This document shows, in pieces, positions 1,910 to 25,954 of a DNA stretch of 32,272 nucleotides (the first letter of the stretch is position 1; every line of letters starts with the position of its first letter). Both the position numbers and the translations under genes were made by a program. The notes under the pieces are model-generated. The model saw nothing but the letters and a program-made list of their open reading frames with translations. It searched no databases and was not told the origin of the DNA. This stretch comes from Elainella sp. Prado103 (GTDB lineage: Bacteria; Cyanobacteriota; Cyanobacteriia; Elainellales; Elainellaceae): the NCBI GenBank assembly GCA_025454395.1, contig JALOOM010000097.1:1-32272 (forward strand), read 5' to 3'.

Positions 1910-4132
1910 ATGGCTTATGAACCGCTGCACCACAAATACCGTCCGCAAACCTTTGCTGAACTCGTTGGGCAAGAAGCGATCACCACCACCCTGGTCAACG
2001 CCCTGAAACAGCAAAAGATTGCCCCAGCCTATCTCTTCACCGGCGCACGAGGCACTGGCAAAACTTCGAGTGCTCGCATCCTGGCTAAGTCGCTCAACTG
2101 TTTGCGCTCCGATCGCCCAACCGAGCAGCCCTGTGGTCAGTGTGAAGTGTGTCGATCGATTGCCGATGGATCGGCCCTGGATGTGATTGAAATTGATGCC
2201 GCCAGTAACACCGGGGTCGATAACATCCGGGAGCTGATCGAACGATCGCAGTTTGCCCCTGTGCAGTGTCGCTACAAGGTTTATGTGGTGGATGAATGCC
2301 ACATGCTCAGTACGGCTGCCTTCAATGCTCTATTGAAAACGCTGGAAGAGCCGCCCGATCGGGTTATCTTTGTGCTGGCCACTACCGATCCCCAACGAGT
2401 CCTGCCCACCATCATTTCTCGCTGTCAGCGGTTTGATTTTCGACGGATTGACCTGCCGGCCATGGTAAGTCACCTGAGTCAGATCGCCCAAGCTGAAGCG
2501 ATTACCATCACACCAGAAGCCGTTCAGATCGTGGCTCAGATCGCCCAAGGTGGGTTACGCGATGCCCAAAGTATGTTGGATCAGCTCAGCCTGCTAGAAG
2601 GGACGATCAGTGTCGAGCGGGTTTGGGATCTAGTCGGGGCGGTGCCAGAGCGAGATCTCCTGGACTTAGTGCAAGCCTTGATGCAAGCTGATCCCACTAC
2701 CGTGATCGATCGAGTTCGCCATTTGTTAGATCGAGGCAGAGAACCCCTGATCGTGCTACAAAATTTGGCCAGCTTTTATCGGGATTTACTCATTGCCAAA
2801 ACCACACCCGATCGGCAAGATTTAGTCGCTCTCACCGCACCCACTTGGCAGGCAATGGTGGATCTGGCGCAGTCGATCGAGTTCGCTACCCTTCTACATG
2901 GACAACAACATTTGCGAGCCAGCGAAGTTCAAATTAAAAACACAACCCAACCGCGACTGTGGTTAGAAGTGACCTTGCTAGGTTTGCTCCCGGGCTCAGC
3001 GGCTTCCCCTCCAAGCAATCAACCTCGCTCCTTAACTGCGCCCTCTTTTTCTCAGGTAGTGCCAACCCCTCAAGCTACTCCGCAACTCCCACCGAATCCC
3101 AAAACTGATCAGGCTCAGGTTAAGGCCGCTCCCACAACCGCCTTCACTGCGGCGGAAACCGGGGCTCCAATCCCGGTAGACACAACGAGCCCCGCTCCAG
3201 AGTATTGCCCCGTGCCTGATGCAACGACCAGTGATTTACCCACTTTACCCACTTCACCTGCTTTACCGACTTCATCCCTCACTGCCGCGATCGACGATTC
3301 AGCCAGCCTCTCTCCTCCGGAGAACGATTCGCCTACTGCTCCTGTTGATCCCGATCCGAATGCATCTCTGCCTCCAGTTTCGATCGATTTAGAACAAGTT
3401 TGGCAAACCATTTTGGGATTGATACATCCACCCGGTACCCAGGCATTGTTTAAGCAACAGGGTCGTTTGCTAGCACTGGATGCCAACCTCGTCCGGGTCG
3501 GTATCACGTCCCAACCCCTGTTCAAAATGGCTCAGCAGCGGATTACCAATCTGGAGGCTGCTTTTAGTCAGCATATGCAGCAGCCGATGAAGGTAAGCCT
3601 AGAGGTAACCGCAATCCCAGCTCCAGCAGCCCCTAACATCAGTGATGCAGATTTTGCGGCCGATCGACCTGAACCCGTCCATCCGACTCCAACGGCTCCC
3701 CCACCCTTCACTGCCAATGGCAATCAAGCTCGATCGGTAGCTGGATCACAACCTCCTGGATCACAACCTCCTGGATCTTCACCTGCCGGATCTTTACCTG
3801 CCGGATCTTTACCCAGCCGCCCAGAAGCCGGGATCCCGGCTCCTCCAGAGCAGGTTTCTGCTACTCCCACAAATCACCTCGCAAGACCAATAACCAATGG
3901 CGCTCCCCCTCTCGCACCGCCGCCCATTGAGCCCTCACCGGGCTGGCAGGCCGAAGATGAGGTGAGTCGAGCGGCCAAAAGTCTGGCTCAATTGTTTAAC
4001 GGTCAGGTGGTGAGTTGGGAAGAATCTCCATTGACTGCCAGCACCACCGAAACCGAGTTCGATCGAACCCGTAGCGATCTAAATTCAAATCTGGTTGAAG
4101 ATGGAGACCCAGATGATGACGTACCATTTTAA
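1910..4132 (+). CDS. dnaX: DNA polymerase III subunit gamma/tau
   Basis: Clamp-loader ATPase that loads the beta sliding clamp and holds the replicase together. Visible motifs: the entry motif HHKYRPQTFAELVGQ, Walker A GARGTGKT (45-52), zinc-module cysteines C64, C75, C78 and C81, Walker B VVDECHML (126-133), and the SRC motif with its arginine finger near R171. After the AAA+ and domain III core (to about 360) comes a long Pro/Ala/Thr-rich linker, a conserved tau-type block around 495-560 (starting LEQVWQTILGLI), a second linker with five GSxPxG-like repeats, and an acidic tail ending DDDVPF. At 740 residues it is longer than typical short bacterial gamma/tau proteins, mostly through linker. 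Some cyanobacterial dnaX genes (Synechocystis) carry an intein at the ATPase core; here Walker A and B are uninterrupted. No A-rich slippery frameshift site was noticed. Confidence 0.97.
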   Translation: MAYEPLHHKYRPQTFAELVGQEAITTTLVNALKQQKIAPAYLFTGARGTGKTSSARILAKSLNCLRSDRPTEQPCGQCEVCRSIADGSALDVIEIDAASNTGVDNIRELIERSQFAPVQCRYKVYVVDECHMLSTAAFNALLKTLEEPPDRVIFVLATTDPQRVLPTIISRCQRFDFRRIDLPAMVSHLSQIAQAEAITITPEAVQIVAQIAQGGLRDAQSMLDQLSLLEGTISVERVWDLVGAVPERDLLDLVQALMQADPTTVIDRVRHLLDRGREPLIVLQNLASFYRDLLIAKTTPDRQDLVALTAPTWQAMVDLAQSIEFATLLHGQQHLRASEVQIKNTTQPRLWLEVTLLGLLPGSAASPPSNQPRSLTAPSFSQVVPTPQATPQLPPNPKTDQAQVKAAPTTAFTAAETGAPIPVDTTSPAPEYCPVPDATTSDLPTLPTSPALPTSSLTAAIDDSASLSPPENDSPTAPVDPDPNASLPPVSIDLEQVWQTILGLIHPPGTQALFKQQGRLLALDANLVRVGITSQPLFKMAQQRITNLEAAFSQHMQQPMKVSLEVTAIPAPAAPNISDADFAADRPEPVHPTPTAPPPFTANGNQARSVAGSQPPGSQPPGSSPAGSLPAGSLPSRPEAGIPAPPEQVSATPTNHLARPITNGAPPLAPPPIEPSPGWQAEDEVSRAAKSLAQLFNGQVVSWEESPLTASTTETEFDRTRSDLNSNLVEDGDPDDDVPF
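3743..3817 (+). repeat. tandem repeat, 15 bp x 5, inside dnaX
   Basis: Five consecutive 15-bp units. The first two are identical (GGATCACAACCTCCT), and the next three are variants of GGATCTTTACCTGCC. They stay in frame and encode Gly-Ser-x-Pro-x units in the tau linker. Conservation at the base level beyond what the peptide needs points to recent unit duplication. Confidence 0.95.
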
Positions 4133-4238
4133 GTAGAACGTTTGACAGAGCCCTGGTTAAACGTTTGGGTAGAGGGATCGCAATTGTTTCGATCATCTCT
4201 CCATCTCACTGTTTGAGGAGCAACTGAGTCAAAATCCT

Positions 4239-4673
4239 ATGGCTGGAACTTCATCAACCCTTCCACTTGCCTTAGAACAAATTGTGCAGCGGTTTCAGCG
4301 GGTAGCCGACCCGAAGCAACGCTATGAGCAATTACTATCTTTGGCAAAGCGCTTGGAAGAACTGCCCGACGCGGATAAAGTGCCTGAAAATAAGGTGTCT
4401 GGTTGTGTTTCACAGGTTTATATCACGGCCGAGCTAATTGACGGCAAAGTTCAGTATCACGGAGATTCAGACTCTCAGCTTGTGAAGGGGCTAGTCGCGC
4501 TGCTGATTCGGGGGCTCAACGATTTACCGCCTGAGCAGATCTTGCAAGTCACTCCTGACTTTATTCAGGCGACTGGGCTCAATGTCAGTCTTACCCCTTC
4601 GCGAGCCAACGGTTTTTACAACATCTTCCGGATGATGCAGCAAAAGGCATTTCAACTACAAACCAATGTCTAA
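4239..4673 (+). CDS. sufE: SufE family sulfur acceptor
   Basis: Receives sulfane sulfur from the cysteine desulfurase SufS and passes it to the SufBCD Fe-S scaffold in the cytosol. The 144-residue length is normal for the family. The signature segment is NKVSGCVSQVY, in which C56 is the persulfide-carrying cysteine. Further family features are LVKGLVALLIRGLNDLPPEQ and the C-terminal SRANGFYNIFRMM. It lies 106 bp after dnaX on the same strand and is followed by a hairpin with a T-run at 4750. A GAGGAG lies at 4215, rather far from the ATG (18 bases), so translation initiation looks weak or differently organised. Neither the desulfurase nor suf scaffold genes are in the window. Confidence 0.93.
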   Translation: MAGTSSTLPLALEQIVQRFQRVADPKQRYEQLLSLAKRLEELPDADKVPENKVSGCVSQVYITAELIDGKVQYHGDSDSQLVKGLVALLIRGLNDLPPEQILQVTPDFIQATGLNVSLTPSRANGFYNIFRMMQQKAFQLQTNV

Positions 4674-4749
4674 CTAACGCTTAACTCTCTGGCTAGAAAC
4701 CCATCCACTCCAATTAAGTCATTACTCTCAATTTAGTTGTCACTTAATG

Positions 4750-4783
4750 AGGATTCGATCTACTTGCGATCGAGTCCTTTTCT
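4750..4783 (+). terminator. intrinsic terminator after sufE
   Basis: An 11-bp stem (AGGATTCGATC with GATCGAGTCCT, one G-T wobble) around a 7-base loop, followed by TTTT. It sits 76 bp beyond the sufE stop in the right orientation to end dnaX-sufE transcription. Confidence 0.7.
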
Positions 4784-4989
4784 GTATCCACAAATTTTAG
4801 CTGAGCTTTAGTGTGAATGCTCTAAAAGTTTTCAATATTTCGTTCAATCATTATCTGCGATCAGGTATCTATTTGAATTACTTGAGTGCTTCGATCGCAA
4901 ATTAATCTCCAGACGGGCAGCGAGTCATTATCCTTACAAAACTTTTGTCAGTCATCAGAACTTTTGTCAGTCAACCCAGCGAGATTATT

Positions 4990-5045
4990 TCAGTAGAAAT
5001 ACCTCAGTAAAAATACTTCAGTGAAAATACCTCCCTAGAAATTCA
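4990..5045 (+). repeat. tandem repeat, 14 bp x 4 (degenerate)
   Basis: Units TCAGTAGAAATACC, TCAGTAAAAATACT and TCAGTGAAAATACC, followed by a decayed TCCCTAGAAATTCA. Intergenic; the period is not a multiple of three. Confidence 0.8.
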
Positions 5046-5842: not shown

Positions 5843-5902
5843 CTTCTTAGCCGATGCCTTCTTAGCCGATGCCTTACTAGCCAATGGTTTGTTAGCCAAT
5901 GG
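5843..5902 (+). repeat. tandem repeat, 15 bp x 4
   Basis: Two identical units CTTCTTAGCCGATGC, then CTTACTAGCCAATGG and TTTGTTAGCCAATGG, with a decayed fifth unit. They lie upstream of the glycosyltransferase. On the minus strand they would read as Ala-Ser-Ala-Lys-Lys/Pro-Leu-Ala-Asn-Lys repeats in a short frame that is probably not a gene. Confidence 0.9.
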
Positions 5903-6078
5903 TTTGCTAAGGCACGCAAAGTCCTCTTTTACTTCCCTGTTGTTCACCTCTTCAGACAATTTTTGACCAGTTTTCTCCGAGTGGAATCTCCAAATGGAAT
6001 CGTCCATCGGCGAAATTGTTCTGCGCAAATTGGGCGGGTGCCAGTTGCTTTGCTATCTTCCAAGAGCGGTTTGAATTT

Positions 6079-7398
6079 ATGCGGATTCTGATTTATTCCT
6101 ACAATTACCATCCTGAGCCGATCGGCATTGCGCCGTTAATGACTGAACTGGCTGAGGGGTTGGTAGCACGGGGCCATGAGGTGCGGGTTGTCACCGGCAT
6201 GCCTAACTATCCCCAACGGCAAGTTTACGAAGGCTACAAAGGTAAGCTGTATTGCACAGAAGAACGGAACGGTGTAACGATTCAACGTAGCTGCGTTTGG
6301 ATTCGTCCTCAACCCGGTTTGCTCACCCGGATGCTGCTTGACGGGAGCTTTGTTGTGACCAGTTTGGTTCAAGCCTTGCGAGGTTGGCGACCCGATGTGA
6401 TTTTACTCACGGTTCCACCCTTGCCGGTTTCTGTACCCGCAGCATTACTGGGGTTATTCTACTCTTGCCCGATCGTTCTGAACCTGCAAGACATTTTGCC
6501 AGATGCTGCTGTTCATGTTGGGTTGCTCACCAATAAGCGAGCTATTCGGGTGTTTGAAGCCCTTGAAAAATTTGCTTACCGGACTGCAAGCGTTATTAGT
6601 GTAATCACCGATGGCTTTACTGAGAACCTGATCGCCAAAGGGATCTCGCGGGACAAAATTCGCTGTATTCCCAACTGGGTTGATGTTCAGTTCATTCGCC
6701 CTCTCCCTAAGCAAGGAAATGCCTTTCGTCAAGCCTACGGCTTAGAAGACAAATTTGTGGTGATGTACTCCGGCAATATTGCCCTGACTCAAGGTCTAGA
6801 AACAGTCATTCAGACAGCAGCTCAGCTTGCTCACATCCCAGAAATTATGTTTGTGGTTGTAGGGGAAAAGAAGGCTTTAGAATCCCTTCGTCAAGCCTGC
6901 GTGCAACATGGTGTCCAGAATGTTTTGCTTGTGCCTTTCCAGCCGCGTGAACAACTCCCAGACATGTTAGCCGCAGCCGATGTGGGGTTAGTGGTACAGA
7001 AGCGCAATGTTGTATCCTTCAACATGCCCTCCAAAATTCAAGTTTTACTCGCTAGTGGACGACCGATTGTTGCTTCAGTGCCTACTAGCGGCACGGCAGC
7101 TAGAGCAATCCGGCAAAGTGGGGGTGGAGTCGTGGTTGAACCTGAAAAACCAGAGTCTCTTGCCAGCGCCATTCAAGACCTCTACCTCAATCCAGCCAAG
7201 GCCAATACCCTAGCTCAGCAGGGACGCGCTTATGCGATGCAGCATTACTCCTTTGAGAAAGCATTGAGCCGCTATGAAAAACTGTTCTACGATGTAATTT
7301 CTTCTTCGGGATCGACCACGCCAGTTTTGCCCGACCTTTTGCCTGAGTTGAAAGGTGAGCAATCAATGGCAGATGCTATGCCGATTGAAGTGCAGTAA
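6079..7398 (+). CDS. WcaI-like family 4 glycosyltransferase
   Basis: A 439-residue GT-B glycosyltransferase of the WcaI/colanic-acid type, expected to move a sugar from a nucleotide-sugar donor onto a lipid-linked or polysaccharide acceptor at the inner face of the cytoplasmic membrane. The N-terminal Rossmann half opens with RILIYSYNYHPEPIGIAPL and contains LVARGHEVRVVTGMPNYP. The C-terminal half has VVMYSGNIALTQGLE and FVVVGEKKALE, followed by the donor-site region SGRPIVASVPTSGTAA and GGGVVVEPEKPESLA. The ATG at 6079 fits the family N-terminus; a TTG at 6016 would add 21 unrelated residues. There are no adjacent polysaccharide genes, so it looks monocistronic behind a long leader. The substrate cannot be read from sequence. 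Confidence 0.88.
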   Translation: MRILIYSYNYHPEPIGIAPLMTELAEGLVARGHEVRVVTGMPNYPQRQVYEGYKGKLYCTEERNGVTIQRSCVWIRPQPGLLTRMLLDGSFVVTSLVQALRGWRPDVILLTVPPLPVSVPAALLGLFYSCPIVLNLQDILPDAAVHVGLLTNKRAIRVFEALEKFAYRTASVISVITDGFTENLIAKGISRDKIRCIPNWVDVQFIRPLPKQGNAFRQAYGLEDKFVVMYSGNIALTQGLETVIQTAAQLAHIPEIMFVVVGEKKALESLRQACVQHGVQNVLLVPFQPREQLPDMLAAADVGLVVQKRNVVSFNMPSKIQVLLASGRPIVASVPTSGTAARAIRQSGGGVVVEPEKPESLASAIQDLYLNPAKANTLAQQGRAYAMQHYSFEKALSRYEKLFYDVISSSGSTTPVLPDLLPELKGEQSMADAMPIEVQ

Positions 7399-7460: not shown

Positions 7461-7475
7461 GCCCCTGGGGCTTTT
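7461..7475 (+). terminator. possible weak terminator after the glycosyltransferase
   Basis: GCCC-CTG-GGGC followed by TTTT, 62 bp past the stop. The stem has only four GC pairs and the T-run is short, so this is a weak candidate. Confidence 0.25.
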
Positions 7476-7522
7476 ACAGTCAATGGAGGTTTTACAGTCG
7501 ATGGGGCTTTTACAGTCGAAAG
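7469..7522 (+). repeat. tandem repeat, 18 bp x 3
   Basis: Units GGCTTTTACAGTCAATGG, AGGTTTTACAGTCGATGG and GGCTTTTACAGTCGAAAG. They lie between the convergent glycosyltransferase and pentapeptide-repeat genes. Confidence 0.88.
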
Positions 7523-7562
7523 GAAGAACGCAGAAGTTTGGTGTGCTGCGGCTCTGGTTGTA

Positions 7563-7622
7563 GATCTGGCTGCGGATCGGGTTATAGATCCGGCTATAGA
7601 TTTGGCTACAAATTTGGCTGCA
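7563..7622 (+). repeat. tandem repeat, 12 bp x 5, overlapping a gene end
   Basis: Five diverged units of the form GATCTGGCTGCG / GATCCGGCTATA / GATTTGGCTACA. The array runs across the stop codon (7606-7608) of the pentapeptide-repeat gene, so part is coding and part is not. Confidence 0.8.
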
Positions 7623-8532
7623 AATGTAAATTGCTCAGGTTGGAATCGTTGGATACAGATTGAGGTTGATCCGGTTGAGATTGATCCAATTGATCCAGTT
7701 GAGATTGATCCGGTTGAGGCTGATTGAGTAGAGCCGCATCCCATTGCGTTGGATCGGGTAACATCCGTAACACATTTGGGAAAATTGCGCCTTGGGAGAT
7801 TAAATAAGTACGATCGGGCGGAGTGAGCCCCAGATTGTCACAAAACATCGCTTCTCGGACGTTAGCCATTCGGATATTCGCTTCGGTAAGAATGGTTTCT
7901 CCCAAGTCAGCTCCTACCAGATTGGCATGGAGTAAATTCGTCAAACTCAAGTCCGCCAAACTCAAATCTGCACCTCGCAGATCAGCATCATGTAGGTCAG
8001 CTCCATTCAAGCTGGCCAGTCGTAAATCTGCACCCCTAAGATCGGCTCCACTCAGATTCGCCAGGGAAAGATTGGCACCTCTGAGATCGGCTCCACTCAG
8101 ATTCGCCCTGCGCAAATTTGCCCCGATCAAGTAGCTGCTCACTAAGTCAGCCCCATTCAAATTAGCGAGGGACAAGTTAGCACTTCTCAGATCCGCCTCT
8201 CGTAAGTTTGCACCACTCAAATCGAATTCAACCAAATGAGCGTTCATCAGCTCGATCCCATGGTTGGGATGTTCTTGAAGCCAGTGGTTCCAAGCCTGAA
8301 CACCCCGTTTCAATCGAAGCATTTGCTCAGTAGTTGTGCGGGTGGCAAGCTGTTGCGCGAGTTTCCAAACGGAAGATTGATTCACGGTTCTCGTTGTAAT
8401 TACGGTGAAAGCATGCGATCGACTGCGCTGATTCTTCAGAATATCATTCATCTTTCCAACCGCCCAGTCAGGGCATTGACTTAAAAAGAACTCTGTAAAA
8501 TTTCCGTAAAGCTTCCTCAAGCTAAAAAACAT
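7606..8532 (-). CDS. pentapeptide-repeat protein
   Basis: A 308-residue protein. Residues 54-95 form a helical region (VWKLAQQLATRT ... GVQAWNHWLQEHP) seen at the head of many cyanobacterial pentapeptide proteins. Residues 104-228 are about 25 A(D/N)LXX pentapeptides forming a right-handed quadrilateral beta-helix. Residues 229-252 are the usual cap (LGLTPPDRTYLISQGAIF). The tail is Gln/Asp/Pro-rich and encoded by a 15-bp repeat. There is no signal peptide and no partner domain. Such proteins are abundant in cyanobacteria and mostly of unknown role. The ATG at 8532 has no clear ribosome site; the ATG at 8451 (MNDILKNQ) is a possible alternative start. Convergent with the glycosyltransferase, divergent from pixG. 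Confidence 0.88.
   Translation of the reverse strand: MFFSLRKLYGNFTEFFLSQCPDWAVGKMNDILKNQRSRSHAFTVITTRTVNQSSVWKLAQQLATRTTTEQMLRLKRGVQAWNHWLQEHPNHGIELMNAHLVEFDLSGANLREADLRSANLSLANLNGADLVSSYLIGANLRRANLSGADLRGANLSLANLSGADLRGADLRLASLNGADLHDADLRGADLSLADLSLTNLLHANLVGADLGETILTEANIRMANVREAMFCDNLGLTPPDRTYLISQGAIFPNVLRMLPDPTQWDAALLNQPQPDQSQLDQLDQSQPDQPQSVSNDSNLSNLHLQPNL
7666..7719 (+). repeat. 15-bp repeat with a 9-bp partial unit, in the pentapeptide gene tail
   Basis: TTGATCCGGTTGAGA, a 9-bp partial TTGATCCAA, TTGATCCAGTTGAGA, then TTGATCCGGTTGAGG. Read on the minus strand this gives the Gln-Pro-Asp-Gln-Ser tail. The partial unit suggests slippage or unequal recombination that kept the frame. Confidence 0.88.
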
Positions 8533-9948: not shown

Positions 9949-10063
9949 TTTTCTCAAATTTTCTAGTCGATTTCACCACCAATTCTTGCCAATCATCTAT
10001 CGACATCTACACTGAACCGATCGACCGAGTTTCTAATCGATTTGCTTGCGAATTGATTTGCTT

Positions 10064-10143
10064 GCCAGTTGATTTTTAAGCCAGTTGATTTTTAAGCCAG
10101 TTGATTTTTAAGCCAGTTGATTTTTAAGCCAGTTGATTTTTAA
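10064..10143 (+). repeat. tandem repeat, 16 bp x 5 (perfect)
   Basis: Five identical copies of GCCAGTTGATTTTTAA in the pixG-pixH gap. Perfect identity implies recent expansion. Confidence 0.97.
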
Positions 10144-10166
10144 GGTTGTATTTCCTACCAGATTAG

Positions 10167-10206
10167 CCAATCTCAGCCAATCTCAGTCAATCTCAGTCAA
10201 TCTCAG
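10167..10206 (+). repeat. tandem repeat, 10 bp x 4
   Basis: Two copies of CCAATCTCAG followed by two of TCAATCTCAG, directly after the 16-bp array and unrelated to it. Confidence 0.93.
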
Positions 10207-10278
10207 TGTATTTCCTTCTCCTTACGCCCTCCCCTTGCGCCCTACTCCCTCAAAAATTTTTAGATTCACAGATAATCC

Positions 10279-11218: not shown

Positions 11219-11286
11219 GGGTTGTCACAACTCGTTCTATTTTAAATTTTTTGATTTATCTCCTTCACCTTTTACTCAAGCAATAT

Positions 11287-14200
11287 ATGACAACCCAACT
11301 GCGCGATTCACTTAACCATTCCAAGCACCATTCTGAGGAAATTCCTTCGATCGAACCAATTGCGTCAAGCGCGATCGAAGATCCACAGGTGAGTCGGTCA
11401 GGTTGGTTGAGTCACCTATCCATTCGGCAGAAGTCTCTACTGACCTTAGTCAGCTCGGAGGTTTTATCCATTCTGGCGATCATGGGAGCGAGTTCAGCAT
11501 TATTGCTCTGGGGAGGACGTATGCTCCTTGAACAGCAGTCCAAATCTGAATTAGAGGTGATGACTGTTCTTCATGACATGGCAACAGAGCAGTCTATTGT
11601 CAGTTTACGTAGCCCCGCTACTCATCCTGCACTTCTGACCGTGGCTCGAGAATATGCCAATAGCCGCACTCTCAACCCGGAGTCTACTCAAGCAGCGCGA
11701 GACTGGCTCAAATCTATTGTGATTCCTAACAGAATGCAATATGGAATGCTATTGGGAACCGATCGAAAAATTCTAGTGCATACAACAGCCGCATCCATCG
11801 ATCGCAGCTTTGACCCCGATGGGATCATCACAGCAGTTCTCCAATCTGGTCTCCAATCTGGCAAAGAGCTGCAAAGTCTAGTCGTTGTCAGCAGCCAATC
11901 CCTTCAGCAAGAGGCAGTTCCCTTGCCAGCCGGACTGAATCAGCAGGATATGTTGGTGCGTTATGTCGCGATACCTGTCAAAGATCCAGAGAATCAAACT
12001 TTACTCGGTGTACTGGTGAGTGGCGAAATCCTCAACCAAAATCGGGACTTAGTCGATCGGACGATCCAAGCATTAGGAAGCGGTTATAGTGGGCTTTATC
12101 TTCGGCAAACCAATGGGGTGTTGGGTTTGGTGTCCAGCCTGAAACTCAGTGATCAATCTACCAATGCCCAAGCTGAATCAATGGTGTCTCTTCCTGATGC
12201 GCGGCTGTTAGAGAGGGCGATCCAGGCTGAACCTCCGCAAATTGCCATGCAGCGATCTACCCTTTTGGGGCAACCCTATACCCTCGCCGCCCGTCCCTTA
12301 ACGAATCACCAAGGCGATCCAGTTGCCGTCCTCGTACGGGGTACTTCCGAGGTGGCGTTTCATCAACTATTACAACAACTGTTAAAACTTCAGCTTAGTA
12401 TTGCTGGACTGCTGCTATTACTCGATCTAGTCTTCGCCAGACTTCTGGGAAATTCACTCATTCATCCCATTCAGCAACTTCATCACATCACTCGTCAGTT
12501 TAGTCGAGGCGATCGGCGCGTGCGGGCAGCCGCTTCCACCACTGATGAGATGGGTGAACTGACCCAAGCTTTCAACGAATTAGCAGAGAATATCTCCCGC
12601 TCAGAAGCGCGAATGTCTGAGCAAAACCGCACCCAAGAACAAGTTAACGAACGAGTCAGGTTGCTATCGGAAGTCACCTTACAGATTCGACAATCCCTCC
12701 ATATCCAAACCATTCTCAATACGGCTGTGGAAGGTGGACGGGCTTTACTGCAAGCCGATCGCGTTGTGGTCTATCGCTTTAATCCTGACTTTACCAGTGG
12801 TGAAATTGCTGCTGAATCGGTCGGCGAAGGCTGGATCAAAGCCTTGGGTAAAACCATTTATGATCCGCTCAATCCCATCTCGTTAGATCGCTACCGCACC
12901 GGCCGAATTTCGATGATTGACAATTTAGCCACAGCTCACTTAACGAGCTGTCATTGCGAGATCTTAGAGCGCTTAGAAGTACAAGCTAACATGGTGGCCC
13001 CCATCCTGGTTGGCGATCAACTACTAGGGTTGTTCTGTGTGCACCAATGTGCCACCCCGCGCATTTGGCAACCCAGCGATCTTGAACTCATCCAACAACT
13101 CTCATCCCAAGTCGGTTATGCAATCGCCCATGCGTCCCTATTACAACAACAAAAACATATTGCCGATCGAGAACGCCAACTCAACCTCACCGTTTCTCAA
13201 ATGCGGGAAACCCTGGAACAACAGCATATCTTCAACATTGTTTTGGCAGAAACTCGCCAGATTTTAGCAGCCGATCGAACCATTATTTACCAGTTTGACG
13301 ATCGTTGGGAAGGCACAATTGTTGCGGAATCAGTAGATGATAACTACTTGTCTGCCCTGGGATCTCAAATTGCCGATCCTTGCTTTGCCGATCGCTATGT
13401 GGAAAAATATCGCAAAGGGCGCGTGCAAGCCACAATAGACATTCGGCAAGCCGGACTCACCGACTGTCATATTCAGCAACTAGAAGCATTTCAGGTTAAG
13501 GCCAACCTGGTCGCTCCAATTTTAGTCAAAGACAAGTTGTTAGGATTACTCATTGCCCATCAGTGCTCGAAACCTCGCCATTGGCAGGAATCCGATATTC
13601 GGTTTATGCGACAAATTGCCATTCAGCTTGGATTTGCCTTAGAACAAGCCTTATTACTGAGTCAAACCGAGCAGGCTCGCCAAGCCGCAGAAGCCCTCTC
13701 AGAAGAACGCCAACAAGAAAAAGAACATCTTCAGCAACAATTGGTCAACTTACTTGCCCATGTGGAAGGAGCCGCCAGCGGTAACTTGACTGTACATGCA
13801 GAGGTTTCAACGGGTGAAATTGGTACCGTAGCTGATTTTTTCAACGCGATTATTGAGAATCTACGCTTGATTGTCATGCAGGTAAAACAGTCTGCCCAGC
13901 AAGTGAATACCGCTTTAGGCAAGAACGAAGACGCGATCCAACACTTAGCCGATGCTGCCCATCAGCAATCAGAAGAAACCTCTCATATTTTGAATTCGGT
14001 GGAGCAGATGACCCGCTCGATCCAGGATGTAGCAGAGAGTGCTCGCCAAACTGCTCAGGTGGCTCGATCGGCCTCGACAACAGCGGAAACCGGGGGCATG
14101 GCGATGGATTTAACTGTCCACAATATCCTCAATTTGCGCAACACGATCGGGGATACAGCCAAGAAAGTAAAACGATTAGGGGAATCCTCCCAGCAAATTT

Positions 14201-14721
14201 CTCAAGTGGTGTCGCTCATCAACCAAATTGCGCTACAAACCAATCTTCTGGCAATTAACGCAGGCATTGAGGCAGCCAGAGCGGGGGAAGAAGGACGAGG
14301 ATTTGCGATCGTCGCGGAAGAAGTGGGTGAGTTAGCAGCCCGATCGGCAGAAGCCACCCAGGAGATCGAGCAAGTGGTGGCTGCAATCCAGCGAGAAACC
14401 AGCCAGGTAGTGGAAGCCATGGAGCAAAGCACGTTGCAAGTTGTGGAAGGCACCAAGCTGGTGGAAGAGGCAAAACAGAGCCTTGAGGAGATTAGGGAAG
14501 TATCCCGCCAAATTGATGGTCTGGTGCAGTCGATCTCAGAAGCGACTGTCTCCCAAGCAGCTACCTCCAGTGCCGTTATGCAACTGATGCAACAGGTCAC
14601 CCAAGTTTCAGCACAGACTTCGCTGTCTTCTCAGCACATTGCTACTGCGATCCGACAAACCGTCACGATCGCTCAAGAATTGCAATCTTCCGTAGAAATG
14701 TTCACTGTGGAACCGAATTAA
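11287..14721 (+). CDS. pixJ: PixJ-like phototaxis receptor with two GAF domains
   Basis: A 1144-residue methyl-accepting receptor. Order: cytosolic head, membrane segment at about 54-77 ([17 protein letters not shown]), extracytoplasmic sensor region to about 365, membrane segment at about 370-388 ([17 protein letters not shown]), HAMP (389-440), GAF1 (about 475-620), GAF2 (about 650-795), a second HAMP-like segment (830-875), then the MCP signalling hairpin with tip [20 protein letters not shown] (about 978-997). GAF2 has the DXCF motif (D697-P-C-F700) and the bilin-binding Cys-His pair C727-H728, the hallmark of DXCF cyanobacteriochromes such as Synechocystis PixJ GAF2. GAF1 keeps a Cys-His pair (C555-H556) but has DPLN in place of DXCF. 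The ATG at 11287 is preferred over an in-frame TTG at 11251. It lies 68 bp after pixI. Confidence 0.93.
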
Positions 14722-14827: not shown

Positions 14828-17800
14828 ATGGATAGGGAAAAAGAAATTCAACAACAGTTTTTGGATGAGGCGCAAGAATATATTCAAATTCTGGAAACTG
14901 TCCTCATCGGCATCAGTCAGAGGATTGAAACCGATCCGATTAATGCCGCATTGCGATCCACCCACTCGATCAAAGGTGGAGCAGCCATGATGGGATTCAC
15001 TCGCTTAAGCCACTATGCCCATCGCCTAGAAGATTCCCTAAAAGTTCTGAAAATTCAAAGAAATGCCGTCAATCCAGATATTACGCTAGAACAACAGCTC
15101 CTCGCCGCCGTAGATGGGCTCCGACAAATTTGTGAACTGGAACGACAAGAGCGATCGATCGGAGCTGACCTACAAACTCAGATTGATGCCCTCTTGGATC
15201 AACTACACCAGCGGTTGGGCGAGCCGCAAGCCGAAGATGCCTATTCGATCCTGGCTCCTGAAGAAGGTCAAGATATCGTTTTACTGCTGTTTCAAACCGA
15301 AGTAGAAGCAAGCCTGAGTCAACTGGAAGCCATTTTATCTTCAGCAGCAATCCTTTCAGCCGAGGACGGAGGCTCGGAGCCACTGCTCCCCTTCCTGGCT
15401 CAATTAACCGATGAGTTGGGTGGCTTAGGTGAAATGCTGCAATTGCCCGCCTTTGTCCAGCTCTGTCGATCGGTACAACAGCATTTGCTAGCTGCCTCAG
15501 AGCCGGTAGGGCAGGTCGAACGGATTGCCACCGCTGCTCTCCAGGCTTGGCGACGATCGCAAGCCCTGATCCTCACCGGCCACCGCAGCGAACTCCCTGA
15601 TGCCATTACCCTACCCGGCATTACCCCAGTCTCATTTGCAGCCAGCCTGCTAGAATCCCAACCCGCTCCGGTGTCGGCTGCTTCTGAAGCGATCGATGCA
15701 AACGAGTCTGCCCCCACCGCCCCGATCGCTGAGGAAACCACCCGGATCCCTACCACCAATCCTGATGCTCTGGTGCTGCCAGCCACTTCAAGCGTAGAAA
15801 CCAGCTTGACAGAAGCAAAACTGAACCCTCAGCCCGATCTGGTCGAAAATACGGTGCGGGTACCAGTCAAACAGCTCGATCGCCTCAACGATTTGTGCGG
15901 TGAATTGACCATTGAACGCAATGGTTTAGATCTCAGTCTCAAACGGTTACGCAAGCTGATGAAAGGTTTGAGCCAACGCATTCAGGTGCTGGAAACCTCT
16001 AATACGGAACTGCGCGATGCTTATGATCAAGTCGCTCCGCTAGATACCGGATCAATGCAGTCTTCAATGCCCCAACGCTCCCATCCCCTGTGCCGATCGG
16101 TTGGGTTACACTTGGAGCCCCATCTGAGGTTCAATCCCCCCTCCCCGGATCGCCTGACTGCTAGTGCTCAACCTTTCAACGGGCTAGACTCCGGTTTTGA
16201 TGCGTTGGAATTGGATCGCTACGACAATCTGCATTTGCTCTCCCAGGAAGTGATGGAATCGATCGTCCAGATTCAGGAGATCGCCAGCGATCTGGAAATT
16301 GGGCTGGATGAAGCCGAGCAAACGACCCGCGAACTGAATCGCACCGCCCGTCAGTTGCAAACCCGCCTGACTCAAGTACGGATGCGCCCCCTGTCGGATC
16401 TTACCGATCGCTTTCCTCGTGCTTTGCGAGACTTGTCGCTGCAATATGGCAAACCTGTTCGACTTCAAGTACAAGGTGCCAATACACTGATCGATCGCAA
16501 TATTCTTGATGCTTTAAACGAACCACTCCTGCATCTGGTGCGAAATGCCTTTGATCATGGCATCGAACCGCCTGAACTTCGCCAGCAGCATGGTAAACCC
16601 CCCGAAGGCACCATTACGATTCGCGCCAGCCACCAACCCAGCCGCACTTTGATTACCCTCAGCGATGATGGCGGCGGTATTCCGCTCGACAAAATTCGCG
16701 ATCGGGCCCGTCAGATGGGGTTAGACGAAGTGTTACTGGCCGCTGCAAGCGATCAAGAATTACTCTCACTCATTTTTGAACCGGGCTTCAGTACTTGCGA
16801 TCAGGTCACCGCCCTATCAGGACGCGGCATTGGCATGGATGTCGTGCGCGATCGACTGCGGCAAATTCAGGGAGAAATTACGGTCAACACTCAGGCGGGG
16901 CAAGGCACCACGTTTACCCTATCTGTACCGTTGACCCTGTCAGTGATGCGAGTGCTATTGGCAGAGAGTAACGGGCTGCTGATGGCCTTCCCCACTCGTG
17001 CGATCCAGGAAATGGTGATTCCCGATCCCAGTCAGATCATGACCACAGCAGGCAGTGAGGCATTTGCCTGGAATGGCAGCATGGTGCAGTTAATTCGCCT
17101 CAAACAGTGGCTCACGTTTAACGGTTCCCGCTCCCTGGACACCCCTGAAGGCACGGCTGCGATCGGTGTACCAACGGTGCTGCTCTTGACTCAGGGGGAT
17201 CAACTGATTGGCTTAGAAGTCGATCGCTGCTGGGGCGAGCAAGAAGTGGCGATCCGTAAAATCCAGGGTGGGCCAAGTCTACCGGCTGGCTTCAGCAATT
17301 GCACTATTCTAGGCGACGGTCGCGTCGTGCCACTCGTGAGCATACCTGATCTGTGGCGCTGGTTAATCACCTGTCAACGCGCCCTCACCGATTTTTCCCA
17401 CCCTGCCTTAGCTCCGGTCGTAATCCGCACCGATCCCCGCTCGATCGCCGCTCTGCCCCGGACTCGCCATACCGTGTTGATTATTGATGACTCCACCAAT
17501 GTCCGCCGGTTCTTAGCCCTGACCCTGGAGAAAGCAGGCTATCAAGTCATTCAAGCCAAAGATGGGCAAGAAGCCCTGGACAAACTCGCAACCGGCCTGG
17601 CCGTACAAGCTGTAGTGTGTGATATTGAAATGCCCCGCTTGGATGGCTATGGCTTTCTGGCCCGCCTGAAATCAAACCCCAGTTACGAACAATTGCCAGT
17701 GGCCATGCTGACCACCCGCAGCAGCGATAAACACCGGCAATTGGCTCTCAGTTTGGGGGCGACGGCTTATTTCTCAAAACCATTCAATGAACAAAATTTG

Positions 17801-17861: not shown

Positions 17862-17964
17862 CCCCTCATCCCTAAATCCCTTCTCCCACTAGGGGCGAAG
17901 GGACTTGCAATCCAATCCTGGTTCGAAAGCCCCTCTCCCAGAGCGGGCGAGGGGTTGGGGTGTG
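17862..17964. repeat. double-hairpin palindromic repeat element (MITE/REP-like)
   Basis: The element begins CCCCTCATCCCTAAATCCC and ends GCGAGGGGTTGGGGTG, so its ends are imperfect inverted repeats. Each half is itself a hairpin: CCCTTC...GAAGGG on the left and CCCCTC...GAGGGG on the right. This composition matches a widespread dispersed intergenic element of cyanobacteria and other bacteria (recalled, not searched). Placed after pixL, it may act as a transcription terminator. Confidence 0.7.
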
Positions 17965-17968
17965 AAAT

Positions 17969-18085
17969 GAGTCGCTGAAATGAGCCGCTGAGACGGGTCG
18001 CTGAGACGGGTCGCTGAAATGGGTCGCTGAAATGAGTCGCTGAGACGGGTCGCTGAGATGGGTCGCTGAAATAAGTCGCTGAAGT
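17969..18085 (+). repeat. tandem repeat, 13 bp x 9
   Basis: Nine units of G(G/A)GTCGCTGA(A/G)A(T/C), for example GGGTCGCTGAGAC and GGGTCGCTGAAAT. Two sequence types alternate irregularly, suggesting higher-order duplication. The 13-bp period would shift reading frames, which fits non-coding DNA. Confidence 0.95.
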
Positions 18086-19058: not shown

Positions 19059-19667
19059 ATGTCAAACTCAATTTCCACTTCCGTGAACGCCAACTTTGAC
19101 CCTGATGATTTCAACCGGGATAATTTTGACCCCGATAATTTTGACCAGCCTGATGATTTTGACTCAGATAACTTTGACCCCGATAACTTTGACCCCGATA
19201 ACTTTGACCAGCCTGATGATTTTGAAACTCCCGATTTGAAAGCGTCCGATTTTGCCCATTCCACTGCCCATCCAGTGATTTCTCGCAACCGCACCGATGC
19301 AGAAAGTCACCAGTTAGCGCTGACCATTGCCCAGGCTGCCGATGATCGTAAGGGGGTCGATATTGCCTTACTGCGGGTTTCTGATGTCTCCTATTTGGCC
19401 GATTATTTCGTGGTGGTCACAGGCTTTTCTAATGTGCAAGTGCGAGCGATCGCCCGATCAATTCAGGAAAAAGTGGAAACCGAATGGCAACAATTGCCAC
19501 TCCGAATTGAGGGACAGATGGAAGGCAGTTGGGTGTTGATTGACTATGGTGATGTGATCGCCCATATCTTTTTACCCAACGAGCGTCAGTTTTATAATCT
19601 AGAAGCCTTTTGGGGTCATGCGGAACAAATCAGTTTTGCGCTATCGAGTTCGCAAGAGATTCGCTAA
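19059..19667 (+). CDS. rsfS: ribosomal silencing factor RsfS with acidic repeat extension
   Basis: RsfS binds ribosomal protein uL14 on the large subunit and blocks subunit joining under starvation. The conserved core is residues 83-195: LALTIAQAADDRKGVDI, VSYLADYFVVVTG, GSWVLIDYGDVIAHIF and the FYNLEAFWG ending. The first 80 residues are unusual: a highly acidic stretch of FDPDN/FDQPDDF units (13-55) encoded by 15-bp repeats. Usual RsfS proteins are about 105-150 residues, so this one (202) is clearly extended. No ATG lies between the first codon and the core, though a TTG at residue 60 could restart translation. AGGAG lies 12 bases before the ATG. Next gene CGLD27 is 29 bp on. Confidence 0.93.
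   Translation: MSNSISTSVNANFDPDDFNRDNFDPDNFDQPDDFDSDNFDPDNFDPDNFDQPDDFETPDLKASDFAHSTAHPVISRNRTDAESHQLALTIAQAADDRKGVDIALLRVSDVSYLADYFVVVTGFSNVQVRAIARSIQEKVETEWQQLPLRIEGQMEGSWVLIDYGDVIAHIFLPNERQFYNLEAFWGHAEQISFALSSSQEIR
19092..19223 (+). repeat. in-frame 15-bp repeats in the rsfS 5' end
   Basis: About nine units related to AACTTTGACCCCGAT, with variants GATTTTGAC and CAGCCTGATGAT. A larger block (Asp-Asn-Phe-Asp ... Gln-Pro-Asp-Asp-Phe) occurs twice. They encode residues 12-55 of the RsfS extension. Confidence 0.9.
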
Positions 19668-21206: not shown

Positions 21207-21215
21207 TTCATTCCT

Positions 21216-22094: not shown

Positions 22095-22332
22095 ATGAGT
22101 GCCTCCCCCAAACCCCCTGCACAAGGGATGATTGGTGGCAGGAAGAGGCTGCTTCGCCTCATAGGGTGGATATGGATCTATGGGGTATGGATCTATGGGG
22201 TATGGATCTATGGGGTATGGGGTAATCATTCCACTCCCCCACGATCGATCCAGATACGCTACACGGGGCGAAGCGAAACTCTGCCACTCGCAATTAATCT
22301 GATCTGGAGGGGGTTTGGGGGCAACGCTCCCC
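22063..22332. repeat. 270-bp segment bounded by inverted repeats (MITE-like)
   Basis: GGGGGCGTTGCCCCCAAAC at the left end recurs inverted at the right end (22309-22332) with one or two differences, and a third partial copy (CCCCCAAACCCCCT) lies near 22105. There is no open frame for a transposase. It could be a non-autonomous element or simply clustered intergenic hairpins. Confidence 0.5.
22171..22222 (+). repeat. tandem repeat, 15 bp x 3.5 (perfect)
   Basis: Three identical copies of TATGGATCTATGGGG followed by a partial TATGGGG. Intergenic, within the inverted-repeat-bounded segment. Confidence 0.97.
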
Positions 22333-22375
22333 AGCCTAGCGCCTACTCTAATGCCCCAAAAATCTTCAGCAAACA

Positions 22376-23263
22376 TCAGGCCGCCTGAGCCTGGCTTTCC
22401 TTCAACAAGGGAAACCCTAACTCCTCCCGTTGCTTTACATAAAGCTGCGCGACCTGCCGCGCCAGACTGCGGATTCGACCAATATAGCGGGCTCGCTCCG
22501 TCACCGAAATTACCCCACGGGCATCCAGCAGGTTAAACGTATGAGAACACTTCAACACCTGATCGAAAGCGGGCAACACCAACGATGCCTTCATTAACCG
22601 TTCGGCATCTTGTTCAAACAGTTTAAACAACGTAAACAGCAAGTCTGGATCGGAGGCTTCAAAGTTGTACTTCGATCCTTCAATTTCACCTTGCAGATGC
22701 ACATCACCATAGGTGAGCCGATCGTTCCAGCGAATATCAAAAATTGAATTCACTTCTTGCAAATACATGGTCAGCCGCTCTAGCCCGTAGGTAATTTCGA
22801 TCGATACAGGGCGACAGTCGATCCCACCACACTGCTGAAAATAGGTGAACTGGGTAATCTCCATCCCGTCGAGCCAGACTTCCCAACCGACACCCCAGGC
22901 TCCCACCGCCGCATCTTCCCAGTTGTCTTCCACAAAGCGAATATCGTGATCTTCTGGTTTGATCCCCAATGCCTTCAGCGAATCGAGATAGATATCCAGA
23001 ATATTCTCTGGCGACGGCTTGATGAGCACCTGATATTGGTAATAATGCTGTACCCGGTTGGGGTTTTCGCCATAGCGCCCATCTGCCGGACGACGACAGG
23101 GTTCTACATAGGCCACTGACCAGGGTTCGGGGCCCAATGCCCGCAGAAATGTGTGGGGACTTTTGGTGCCCGCCCCTTTTTCTGTGTCGTAAGGCTGAAC
23201 GATCAAACAGCCCCGATCGCTCCAAAACTGATGCAGCGTGGCAATCACCGACTGAAAATTCAC
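22376..23263 (-). CDS. glyQ: glycyl-tRNA synthetase alpha subunit
   Basis: Catalytic alpha subunit of the heterotetrameric (alpha2-beta2) glycyl-tRNA synthetase, which charges tRNA-Gly; the beta subunit gene glyS is not in the window. The 295 residues carry the strongly conserved class II features: [51 protein letters not shown] and [19 protein letters not shown]. The start is a GTG at 23263, giving [14 protein letters not shown], which is the standard GlyQ N-terminus; GGAAGGGGA lies 7-15 bases upstream. It lies 59 bp downstream of the FAD oxidoreductase on the same strand. Confidence 0.97.
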
Positions 23264-23322
23264 AGCTAATCCCCTTCCAATCTCGTTCTTTGTTAGCTTA
23301 CCGCGTGTTCTACCCTAGCAGC

Positions 23323-24681
23323 CTACATTACCTGCTGCCAAGCTTTCATCTTGCCAGGATTGAGCAATCCGTAAGGATCCATCTCTTGTTTGAAAGCAAG
23401 CTGCACCGGATCGATCGTTTTGCGGCCACCATCTTCCAGAATGTAGGTGTGGGGATTGGCGATAAATGCGCCGTTCACTTCATGATATTCAATAATGTCT
23501 TGAAGTCGTTCTGGTGTAGTATACCGAACCAACTGTAAAGCTGCTGGTAGTATCTGCCCGTTAACACGAATGAACTCTAAATGCATCATCACCTCATCAC
23601 CAAAGTGGTGATACATTTGCTCCAGTAAGGTTAGCGCTTGATCTGGTGGAAACAGGGTTTGCAGATAGGTCAGGCTCGGATCGACGCTGCGAGCGTGCAA
23701 AGTGGTGTGGTTCCAGGTGTATTCATAAATGGCCGTGCCTTTACTGGCTTCCTGGGCTGATTTTTGATAGACGATCGTGCCACCAAACACCTGCACCAAC
23801 CCAGCAAACGGCTCTAGACAAGGCTCAGCGATCATCAGCAACGCACAGTGGCTCTCTGCCGTCAGGATATGGCGAAAAGCCGCAAAATATCCGGCGATCG
23901 GGGCGGCACAAATGCAGATCAGCTTTTTGATCAACCCGTCCGCATCCCCCAACGCTTGACCAAACCGAGCGGCTGTCATGAAGTCGGGGAAGGTCACGAT
24001 CAGTTCTGCCCAGGCGTAGGCTGGACTTAGTGGGATTTCCAGTTCGGTCATAATGCCGTTGGTGCCATAGGCATGGTTTACCTTTTGCACATCGTCCCCT
24101 CGCAAAGTCACGACGCGCGGCTGATCCTCCAGGGTTACCACGCGCACCCCATGCAGGTTGCCCCGATCGCGCAATTGCCCATAGGTGATCGAACCAATGC
24201 CGCCGCTGCCGCCACCAATAAAGCCGCCGATCGTCGCCGTTCGATAAGTGGAAGGAGCCATGCGAATTTCCCAACCTTGCTCGCGAGTCTGTTTGTCGAT
24301 TGCGGCTAGTTTTGCCCCTGGTTCGACGCAGGCAATCCCCGGCTGGATCCACTTCACCGCCTGCATTTTAGTCATATCTAGAATGATTCCCCCTTGCAAA
24401 GGGATGCACTGCCCATAGTTGCCCGTGCCTGCCCCCCGCACCGTTAAGGGAATGCGATGCTGCACGCAAACCGCCGCTACCTGAAGCACCTCCGCCTCGC
24501 TGGCTGGACGCACCACCAGATCGCCCACTTTGTCGGCCAATTGCGCCTGCAAAATCGGACTGTAGTGATAATAGTCTTTTGAGAGCTTGGCCACTTGCGC
24601 CGCATCACGCACCACTTCGATGCCGTTCAAGGCAGATACCACAGCATCCCAGTCGATCGATCGGGTTGCAGCCATCATCAT
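23323..24681 (-). CDS. FAD-binding (GlcD-like) oxidoreductase
   Basis: A flavoprotein of the vanillyl-alcohol oxidase/PCMH fold. The FAD-binding half has VVRPASEAEVLQVAAVCVQH, PLTVRGAGTGNYGQCIPLQG and GFIGGGSGGIGSITYGQLRD; the C-terminal half ends in MDPYGLLNPGKMKAW, the common closing motif of GlcD/D-lactate dehydrogenase-like enzymes. It likely oxidises a 2-hydroxyacid or similar substrate; the substrate is unknown. Four in-frame ATGs compete: 24729, 24717 and 24681 with the two codons after it. AAGGAG lies eight bases before 24681, so that start (452 residues) is preferred; the earlier ones have no ribosome site. glyQ follows. Confidence 0.85.
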   Translation of the reverse strand: MMMAATRSIDWDAVVSALNGIEVVRDAAQVAKLSKDYYHYSPILQAQLADKVGDLVVRPASEAEVLQVAAVCVQHRIPLTVRGAGTGNYGQCIPLQGGIILDMTKMQAVKWIQPGIACVEPGAKLAAIDKQTREQGWEIRMAPSTYRTATIGGFIGGGSGGIGSITYGQLRDRGNLHGVRVVTLEDQPRVVTLRGDDVQKVNHAYGTNGIMTELEIPLSPAYAWAELIVTFPDFMTAARFGQALGDADGLIKKLICICAAPIAGYFAAFRHILTAESHCALLMIAEPCLEPFAGLVQVFGGTIVYQKSAQEASKGTAIYEYTWNHTTLHARSVDPSLTYLQTLFPPDQALTLLEQMYHHFGDEVMMHLEFIRVNGQILPAALQLVRYTTPERLQDIIEYHEVNGAFIANPHTYILEDGGRKTIDPVQLAFKQEMDPYGLLNPGKMKAWQQVM

Positions 24682-24735
24682 TTCTGCTTCTCCTTGTGTC
24701 GTATCTGGCGAACTCATGCCTATGCCCATGATATG

Positions 24736-24780
24736 CCCATGAACCGATTGCCCATGAACCGATTGCCCATGAACCGATTG
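24736..24780 (+). repeat. tandem repeat, 15 bp x 3 (perfect)
   Basis: Three identical copies of CCCATGAACCGATTG, upstream of the FAD oxidoreductase gene (between it and the methyltransferase 3' end). Confidence 0.97.
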
Positions 24781-24892
24781 CTCTGATCGAAAATACCTCT
24801 GCCTAAGCCTAGCATGAGCCGCTTTTCTGGCGATCGGGTTAGTATAACTTGCCGCTCACTTGCCGAACGGATCGCGGTCACTTTGAAAATTG

Positions 24893-25954
24893 TTATTCTG
24901 CTACGGGGAAAAGATTGGGTTTGTTGCCAGTGGGTTTGTTGCCAGTGGGTTTGTTGCCAGTGGGTTTATTGCCAGTGAGAGAATTACGCGAATTGTGCTT
25001 CTTATCTACAGAACGTACCTGTTCACTTAAAGTATTACGCTCCCAAAAGACCCCCTCGGAATAACCTTGGATCGCTGGCTCAGTTTCGGCAAGTTCAAGA
25101 CGCTTCTCAGCTAAGCATGAGTACATCTCATCCATTTCTACACCGAAATATCTTCTTCCCAGCTTTTTGGCCACTACAGCGGTTGTCCCTGATCCCAGAA
25201 AAGGATCAAATACAATATCTCCAGGATTAGAACTGGCAAGCATGATCTTTGCAACTAACTTCTCTGGTTTCTGAGTCGGGTGATCTGTATTTTCTGGCAT
25301 TGACCAGAAGGGAACCGTTAGATCAGTCCACAAATTAGAAGGATAGGTAAGACGATAATTGCCGCTATCTGTCATATCCCAATCTTTAGGGGTGCCATTC
25401 ACCCGGTAGGGAGCCATAACTTTTCGCTTCAGCTTTACCGCCTCAACATTGAATGTATAAGTATCGGAGACGGTACAAAACCAAATATCTTCCGAAGAAT
25501 TTTTCCAGTTTCTATTAGCTCCACGCCCTTTCTCTCGCTCCCATGTAATACGATTGCGAATCTGAAACCGATTTTTAACTACTTCAAATACAGCAGGTGA
25601 GGATTGCCAATCTGAGCAAATATAAATTGAAGCAGTTGGCTTTAATATGCCCGTCAAACCAGCCAGACAAGCCTCTAACCAATCTGTATAAGTATCTAAA
25701 TCTTTCTTCTTAAAACTGCTAGAATTAAACGTTTTATTTAAGTTATAAGGTGGATCAATCAGAAGCAGGTCAACTGACTGCTGCGGCAGAAAATCCAGCA
25801 CTTGGAATAAGTCTTGGTTGATAGTGCGACCAATAACCTCTGGCAATTCTGCCGGTTGATCCAGGTGCAAAAGTCTTTTTTTATATTTGATTTGTTCTGC
25901 TGTTTCTAGAGTAATCGTCCTGTTGCGCGGGGCACGTTCTTTATCTTGTAGCAT
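24893..25954 (-). CDS. solitary beta-class DNA methyltransferase
   Basis: A 353-residue amino-methyltransferase that would transfer a methyl group from SAM to adenine-N6 or cytosine-N4 in DNA. Motif IV is DPPYNLNKTF (67-70 for DPPY) and motif I, FDPFLGSGTTAVVAKKLG (249-258), comes after it with the target-recognition region between; this order defines the beta class. DPPY favours N6-adenine, but N4-cytosine cannot be excluded. No restriction endonuclease gene flanks it, so it looks like a solitary regulatory methylase. The frame opens with a TTG at 25999, but the ATG at 25954 (MLQDKERAPRN) is preferred. The last 28 residues carry four TGNKP repeats. Visibly more AT-rich than neighbours and poor in CGATCG. 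Divergent from bioF. Confidence 0.88.
   Translation of the reverse strand: MLQDKERAPRNRTITLETAEQIKYKKRLLHLDQPAELPEVIGRTINQDLFQVLDFLPQQSVDLLLIDPPYNLNKTFNSSSFKKKDLDTYTDWLEACLAGLTGILKPTASIYICSDWQSSPAVFEVVKNRFQIRNRITWEREKGRGANRNWKNSSEDIWFCTVSDTYTFNVEAVKLKRKVMAPYRVNGTPKDWDMTDSGNYRLTYPSNLWTDLTVPFWSMPENTDHPTQKPEKLVAKIMLASSNPGDIVFDPFLGSGTTAVVAKKLGRRYFGVEMDEMYSCLAEKRLELAETEPAIQGYSEGVFWERNTLSEQVRSVDKKHNSRNSLTGNKPTGNKPTGNKPTGNKPNLFPVAE
24916..24975 (+). repeat. tandem repeat, 15 bp x 4, in the methyltransferase tail
   Basis: Three identical copies of TGGGTTTGTTGCCAG and a fourth with one change (TGGGTTTATTGCCAG). Read on the minus strand they encode Thr-Gly-Asn-Lys-Pro four times, just before the C-terminus. 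Confidence 0.97.

Follow-up and report, generated by a model that had tools for sequence, protein, structure and literature searches.

What process scatters short tandem arrays of unrelated sequence over a cyanobacterial genome, and what sets the length of their units? The question arises from contig JALOOM010000097.1 of Elainella sp. Prado103 (assembly GCA_025454395.1), whose 32,272 nucleotides form the stretch analysed here, called the window below; an initial annotation had described at least fourteen such arrays in it. The window is contig C101 of a draft genome (5.84 Mb in 157 contigs, 99.29% complete; G000 in our comparisons). We find a length-limited class of local duplications, raised in this lineage, which is well supported as a pattern. 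As to its cause, we lean, with somewhat less than even confidence, towards genome-wide in-place duplication of 9–19 bp segments (mean ~14 bp) without a dominant motif, arising by staggered breakage and fill-in followed by slippage.

Abundance of arrays in the window, the genome and other cyanobacteria

All fourteen annotated arrays were recovered by Tandem Repeats Finder (TRF), thirteen of them beginning within about 6 bases of the position originally given. The array placed at 7563 is present but starts elsewhere, as it sits within a 12/24-bp array at 7545–7625; the one at 7666, also present, had been assigned a 15-bp unit and is better fitted by a 24-bp unit (9 + 15; score 87, versus 62 with 24% indels). 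At a score of at least 40, TRF reported 19 merged loci in the window, against an average of 0.9 and a maximum of 3 in 20 shuffles. Exact arrays with units of 9–20 bp numbered 16, whereas 100 shuffles under a second-order Markov model averaged 0.08 and reached 2 at most; those beyond the annotated list lie at 3235 (9 bp), 11838 (12 bp) and 24721 (11 bp), with a second sub-array at 3781.

Across 40 sampled stretches of the genome (736,200 bases out of 5.84 Mb), we counted 356 exact arrays with units of at least 8 bp, or 48.4 per 100 kb. The corresponding density in the window is 49.6 per 100 kb, making it a typical piece of the genome. The annotation had located the scatter between 3743 and 24975; the arrays there are real, but the feature is not confined to that range and extends throughout the sample, and the proposal of a genome-wide local duplication process is borne out by these counts and by the density of arrays between genes. 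Their spread is uneven, with 2 of the 40 stretches lacking an intergenic array (chi-square per degree of freedom 1.6). After merging, 303 loci remained in 736 kb, which extrapolates to ~2,400 per genome, mostly two-copy; three or more copies were present in 93 of 346 arrays. Array detection covered adjacent copies only, and genes in the sample were called by a simple codon-usage script (81% of the sample covered; ~596 kb genic, 140.4 kb intergenic). The original observation is sound and more general than first described.

Each array has, as the annotation put it, its own sequence and is not a copy of one mobile repeat: 357 distinct units were found among 362 arrays, and a unit recurring at several loci, as a dispersed mobile repeat would show, was seen only twice, each time inside a single stretch. 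A search for a dominant motif yielded at best the 6-mer AGTCTG, in 8 of 207 intergenic arrays versus 1.4 expected. The folding energy of the surroundings, taken as a measure of hairpin context, was equal to background (204 vs 466 sequence windows, P = 0.99), and the orientation of neighbouring genes showed no clear bias (raw counts 58/25/77/32, with 57.9/27.8/67.0/39.4 expected). Counts above shuffle expectation for 0, 1, 2 and 3 mismatches between copies were 220, 120, 111 and 113. Imperfect and mixed-length arrays are common, and the presence of imperfect copies alongside perfect ones indicates that the arrays do not stem from a single recent burst. It is plausible that the process is still active, as perfect copies outnumber each of the mismatch classes.

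For comparison, relatives were sampled from a few contigs each and ranked by intergenic arrays per 100 kb, the main ranking being limited to 19 further cyanobacterial genomes whose intergenic sample reached 10 kb. Elainella sp. Prado103 reached 186 (261 arrays in 140.4 kb), and the others spanned 0–83: G017 and G011 stood at 83, G002 at 72 and G029 at 64, with the lowest values in G001 (9) and in G005, G007, G037 and G039 (all 0). Eight more genomes with less than 10 kb each ranged from 0 to 97. The comparison with relatives that the annotation had called for therefore gives a ~20-fold spread within the genus (186 in G000 vs 9 in G001, where the sample was 3 arrays in 35 kb). Pooled arrays from the 27 other genomes formed a similar bell of unit lengths, slightly shifted towards shorter units (140 arrays, mean 12.7 vs 13.7 bp, rank test P = 0.0001). 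Eighty named cyanobacterial loci, each a single region around one and the same gene, together span 1.32 Mb and contained 100 arrays of 9–20 bp (7.6 per 100 kb), many of them at 9 and 14 bp; the 14-bp arrays perhaps derive from heptamers. No array with 9–20 bp units was detected in two stretches of Escherichia coli K-12 totalling 100 kb. The process is not unique to Elainella sp. Prado103, but it is strongly raised there.

Unit lengths inside and outside genes

Between genes, unit lengths followed a smooth bell spanning 9–19 bp (mean 13.7, SD 2.4, mode 14), with counts of 10, 15, 26, 30, 31, 40, 38, 22, 18, 7, 4 and 1 for units of 9 to 20 bp in turn and only isolated cases of longer units. Shuffled intergenic sequence is expected to yield 0.2 arrays with 10-bp units and 0.0 at every length from 11 bp upward, and the excess over shuffles was small at 5, 6, 7 and 8 bp (24, 7, 7 and 5). 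Genic arrays had a different spectrum, with 14 at 9 bp, 25 at 12 bp, 32 at 15 bp, 11 at 18 bp and three others within 9–20 bp. Multiples of three accounted for 82 of 85 genic arrays versus 85 of 242 intergenic ones. Even in-frame arrays are scarcer per base within genes (82 in ~596 kb vs 85 in ~140 kb outside), as purifying selection predicts.

These two spectra account for the apparent prominence of 15 bp. This length tops the total (74 arrays in the whole sample) because no other in-frame length lies closer to the centre of the ~14-bp bell and because the reading frame filters what is retained in genes. There is no true 15-bp preference, and the special status granted to this length is not supported by the smooth intergenic bell (40 arrays at 14 bp, 38 at 15 bp). 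The annotation had denied that selection for frame explains the preference for 15 bp; for the sharp peak it does, whereas the underlying length preference is indeed independent of frame. Nor is the proposed link to one and a half helical turns supported, since the smooth intergenic bell shows no further maximum around 10.5 or 21 bp. Helical phasing in general was set aside in the same way, with no peak at 10 or 21 bp.

Tandem pairs of 4 bp were also in excess in the intergenic sample (649 observed vs 437 expected, +212). This excess is a matter separate from the 9–19 bp arrays; it is led by ATCG (133/650) and is perhaps a by-product of HIP1-like sequence, GCGATCGC being counted 824 times versus 57 for its reversed control.

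Birth of the arrays and competing explanations

In the account towards which we lean, a staggered break, or two offset nicks, would leave a single-stranded segment of ~14 nt; copying of this segment on either side and Ku-independent rejoining would follow, and its length would be fixed by a protein, not by duplex stability. Once two copies exist, slippage could expand, contract and regenerate the array, and purifying selection would leave almost only multiples of three in genes. Partial support for birth without homology comes from 69 clean two-copy arrays, defined as having no extra copies in either flank, about half of which overlap no more than random duplications do. Beyond the two copies, 18 arrays had no overlap, 12 overlapped by 1 bp and 2 by 2 bp (32/69), in proportions near those of simulated homology-free duplications (37.8, 19.5 and 7.5, if all 69 were of this kind). 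An enrichment of 1-bp overlaps had been considered and disappeared once set against this simulated null.

Several results weigh against this account. The other 37 of the 69 clean arrays overlap by 3–14 bp in a fairly even spread, versus ~4 under the null, so homology would matter for about half of the 69. Among units from different loci, 167 pairs share a 9-mer (a raw count). No correlation links unit length to the GC content of the unit (rho −0.05, P = 0.40, n = 244), and the duplex stability of units is the same as background. These two results give no support to a simple model of nick separation with thermal limits, and a ruler based on duplex melting was rejected; a narrow bell unrelated to duplex stability suggests that a protein sets the length. 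The repair-gene search described below singled out no enzyme, as none of the tested families tracks density. We take the arrays to be a mutation class of a common kind, strongly elevated in this lineage; the breaks proposed for it are deduced from scars.

The closest competitor is ordinary replication slippage between short direct repeats, which would make and grow all of the arrays against a mutator background, with the length limit reflecting the distance over which a nascent strand can back up. We regard it as a quite possible explanation, nearly as likely as staggered breakage with fill-in. The 37 overlapping arrays speak for it, as do the 93 of 346 arrays with three or more copies and the frequency of imperfect, mixed-length arrays; against it stand the 32 arrays with 0–2 bp of overlap in near-null proportions, a bell nearly empty above 19 bp in place of a steady fall from short units, and the presence in Elainella sp. 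Prado103 of MutS_V, SbcC-family, RecJ and XseA matches. The evenness of the 3–14 bp tail is also unlike births at pre-existing short repeats, since longer chance repeats become ever rarer. We attribute the tail chiefly to renewed growth of older arrays that had decayed, with direct slippage as a further possible source.

Among repair genes, Ku (PF02735) had no match in Elainella sp. Prado103 and was found in 1 of 40 genomes (G019), which makes classical non-homologous end joining an unlikely route. In G019, contigs C61 and C66 carry four Ku matches in two convergent pairs, the only ones among the 40 genomes, and three of its six ATP-dependent ligase matches lie on the same contigs. MutS_V was matched in 40/40 genomes, the SbcC family in 21/21 (16 above the curated cut-off, including G000), RecJ and the PolA 5′ nuclease in 21/21 each, XseA in 20/21 and ATP-dependent ligase in 13/21. 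As Elainella sp. Prado103 has matches to all six, no loss among the tested repair genes explains the rise. The sole genome without an XseA match, G037, had no intergenic arrays in its sample. Piwi was matched in 4 of 21 genomes and not in G000; it occurs in low-density G001, G005 and G020, but also in G002. A side observation concerns an 878-aa MutS-family protein of Elainella sp. Prado103, probably MutS2-like (G000:C16:48745–49491), in which the MutS_V match falls into two pieces ~200 bases apart, with an apparent insertion inside the ATPase domain; the same split recurs in many, though not all, of the 40 genomes.

Homologous sites were few. Ten of the 362 arrays had a homologue that spans both flanks, and in three cases this was the window's own copy (L021) matched with the window itself. 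Among the remaining seven, three had homologues without repeat copies (L016, aligned as two separate flanks; L047, which gave no alignment when the comparison was made again; and L052) and four had an equal-length best match, one of them with a second match 7 bases shorter. At the G002 site homologous to a 16-bp array, 16 bases are missing (65% identity over 162 columns). Spanning homologues were found for 10 of 91 coding arrays, apparently from 6 genes and several at only 45–48% identity; nine had no such repeat, and one (L010) had proline-serine repeats of its own.

Other explanations start from selection, mobile elements, temperature or assembly. Selection for five-residue protein linkers could lie behind the 15-bp arrays, in keeping with genic lengths of almost only 9, 12, 15 and 18 bp and with the position of several window arrays, which lie close to the end of a gene or clear of matched domains (DnaX, RsfS, methylase, PsiE). 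We consider this very improbable, as intergenic density is ~13 times the genic value (186 vs 14.3 per 100 kb) and follows a smooth bell, implying that selection filters the arrays and does not create them; as the only cause, linkers are refuted by the intergenic arrays. Adjacent perfect copies that lack homology also resemble an empty target-site duplication, such as an excised or failed mobile element might leave. Known bacterial mobile elements generate target-site duplications of fixed or narrow length, whereas lengths here vary over 9–19 bp. Profiles of 27 and 22 arrays, on inspection, showed no strong motif at the boundaries, and many arrays have three to five copies; this origin, too, has very little to recommend it.

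A higher load of duplications in hot-spring lineages could be argued from G016 and G017, family members reportedly of hot-spring origin that follow Elainella sp. Prado103 in density, although the G016 figure is 4 arrays in 4.1 kb. One count of Elainella genomes comprises five from hot springs and two non-thermal (PMC7674949). Heat nevertheless appears an unlikely driver, as density was correlated neither with a proteome-based proxy of growth temperature (rho −0.18, P = 0.40, n = 23; ~36 °C for G000) nor with tRNA GC (rho −0.33, P = 0.30, n = 12). The draft state of the assembly, with its 157 contigs, could raise suspicion of an artefact, which we hold to be scarcely credible. Two-copy arrays of 9–19 bp units span 18–38 bp and ordinary sequencing reads are longer; the first 1 kb of contigs is not enriched (107 per 100 kb, from 8 arrays in 7.5 kb, vs 194 elsewhere); and the frame is kept in coding arrays (82/85).

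Window arrays, known repeat systems and significance

Arrays of the window are collected in Table 1. The repeats in the DnaX-like gene are absent at that place in the E. saxicola homologue (L121), and the N-terminal repeat of RsfS is absent from 8/8 relatives among those listed. The pentapeptide-repeat gene has a natural 15-bp periodicity of its own, in addition to the extra tandem array in its C-terminal tail. A large array of an 18-bp unit, AGTCTGATAGNTCGAACC, was also noted at ~15361–15580 of locus L004, with many copies in the same genome as that locus.

Table 1 Tandem arrays in the window, with positions, strand (. where none applies) and genic context.
Array	Position	Strand	Context
Two abutting 15-bp arrays (2.5 + 2.2 copies)	3741–3813	+	DnaX-like gene 1910–4132, beyond last matched domain (Pfam DNA_pol3_delta2/gamma3)
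14-bp array, imperfect, 28-bp higher-order unit	4989–5042	.	Intergenic, outside predicted genes
15-bp array, two overlapping phases	5843–5906	.	Intergenic
18-bp array, 3 copies	7466–7519	.	Intergenic, between predicted genes 6016–7398 and 7606–8532
12/24-bp imperfect array	7545–7625	.	Mostly intergenic, enters 3′ end of pentapeptide-repeat gene
24-bp-unit array (9 + 15)	7660–7724	-	C-terminal tail, pentapeptide-repeat protein gene 7606–8532
16-bp array, five perfect copies and diverged lead-in	10035–10144	.	Intergenic
10-bp array, ~4 copies	10165–10207	.	Intergenic
Exact 12-bp duplication	11838–11861	+	Within GAF/MCP gene 11251–14721
13-bp array, 9 diverged copies, 39/52-bp higher-order units	17963–18083	.	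Intergenic
15-bp array, ~7 copies, few indels	19095–19209	+	RsfS gene 19059–19667; N-terminal DNFDP-type repeat added
15-bp array, 3.3 perfect copies	22171–22220	.	Intergenic
11-bp duplication, then 15-bp array, 3.2 perfect copies	24721–24781	.	Duplication at 5′ edge of FAD-binding gene 23323–24729; 15-bp array intergenic
15-bp array, 4 copies	24916–24977	-	C-terminus, DNA methylase gene 24893–25999
15-bp duplication, 2 copies	31514–31550	-	Near N-terminus, PsiE-like gene 30952–31575

With head-to-tail copies of unrelated short units, all within ~6–100 bp, these arrays resemble bacterial minisatellites (variable number tandem repeats, VNTRs). VNTRs usually occur at tens of loci per genome, whereas Elainella sp. 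Prado103 has ~2,400 by the extrapolation above, mostly two-copy. Like the heptanucleotide short tandemly repeated repetitive sequences (STRRs) of cyanobacteria, they are short and mostly intergenic; STRRs form shared 7-bp families, whereas the units here are distinct and 9–19 bp long, and exact 7-bp arrays with a run of at least 10 were rare (3 in the sample).

In 2014, Vaughn and Bennetzen reportedly described small tandem duplications that arise at staggered breaks. Studies of eukaryotes with Cas9 nickase attributed them to nearby single-strand breaks in opposite strands followed by fill-in, with a need for Ku80 and Pol alpha-primase and with induced overhangs of ~43 bp (PMC8355091). The eukaryotic events resemble ours in being local, in-place copies of short segments and differ in their Ku80 dependence and overhang length, Elainella sp. 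Prado103 having no Ku match and units of 9–19 bp. In flies and primates, most short insertions are tandem copies, short junction matches being reported there for deletions, and insertion lengths follow two geometric regimes in place of a bell around 14 bp (PMC2374710). Among titles and abstract openings of the open-licence literature, we found no description of such a length spectrum in cyanobacteria.

The origin of new tandem repeats is an open question in bacterial genome evolution, and probably thousands of mostly two-copy duplications in one narrow length class provide a mutational spectrum from which a mechanism may be read, while the ~20-fold spread inside one genus offers a natural comparison towards the responsible gene. 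The mechanism would also account for the birth of segments peculiar to one lineage, for example the repeat at the N-terminus of RsfS. A bolder proposal, which we put forward as doubtful, is that an active pathway independent of Ku operates in some cyanobacterial lineages, with Elainella sp. Prado103 foremost among those sampled. It would write tandem duplications of a single protein-measured length (~14 nt) without homology and steadily yield new in-frame protein linkers and altered spacers between genes.

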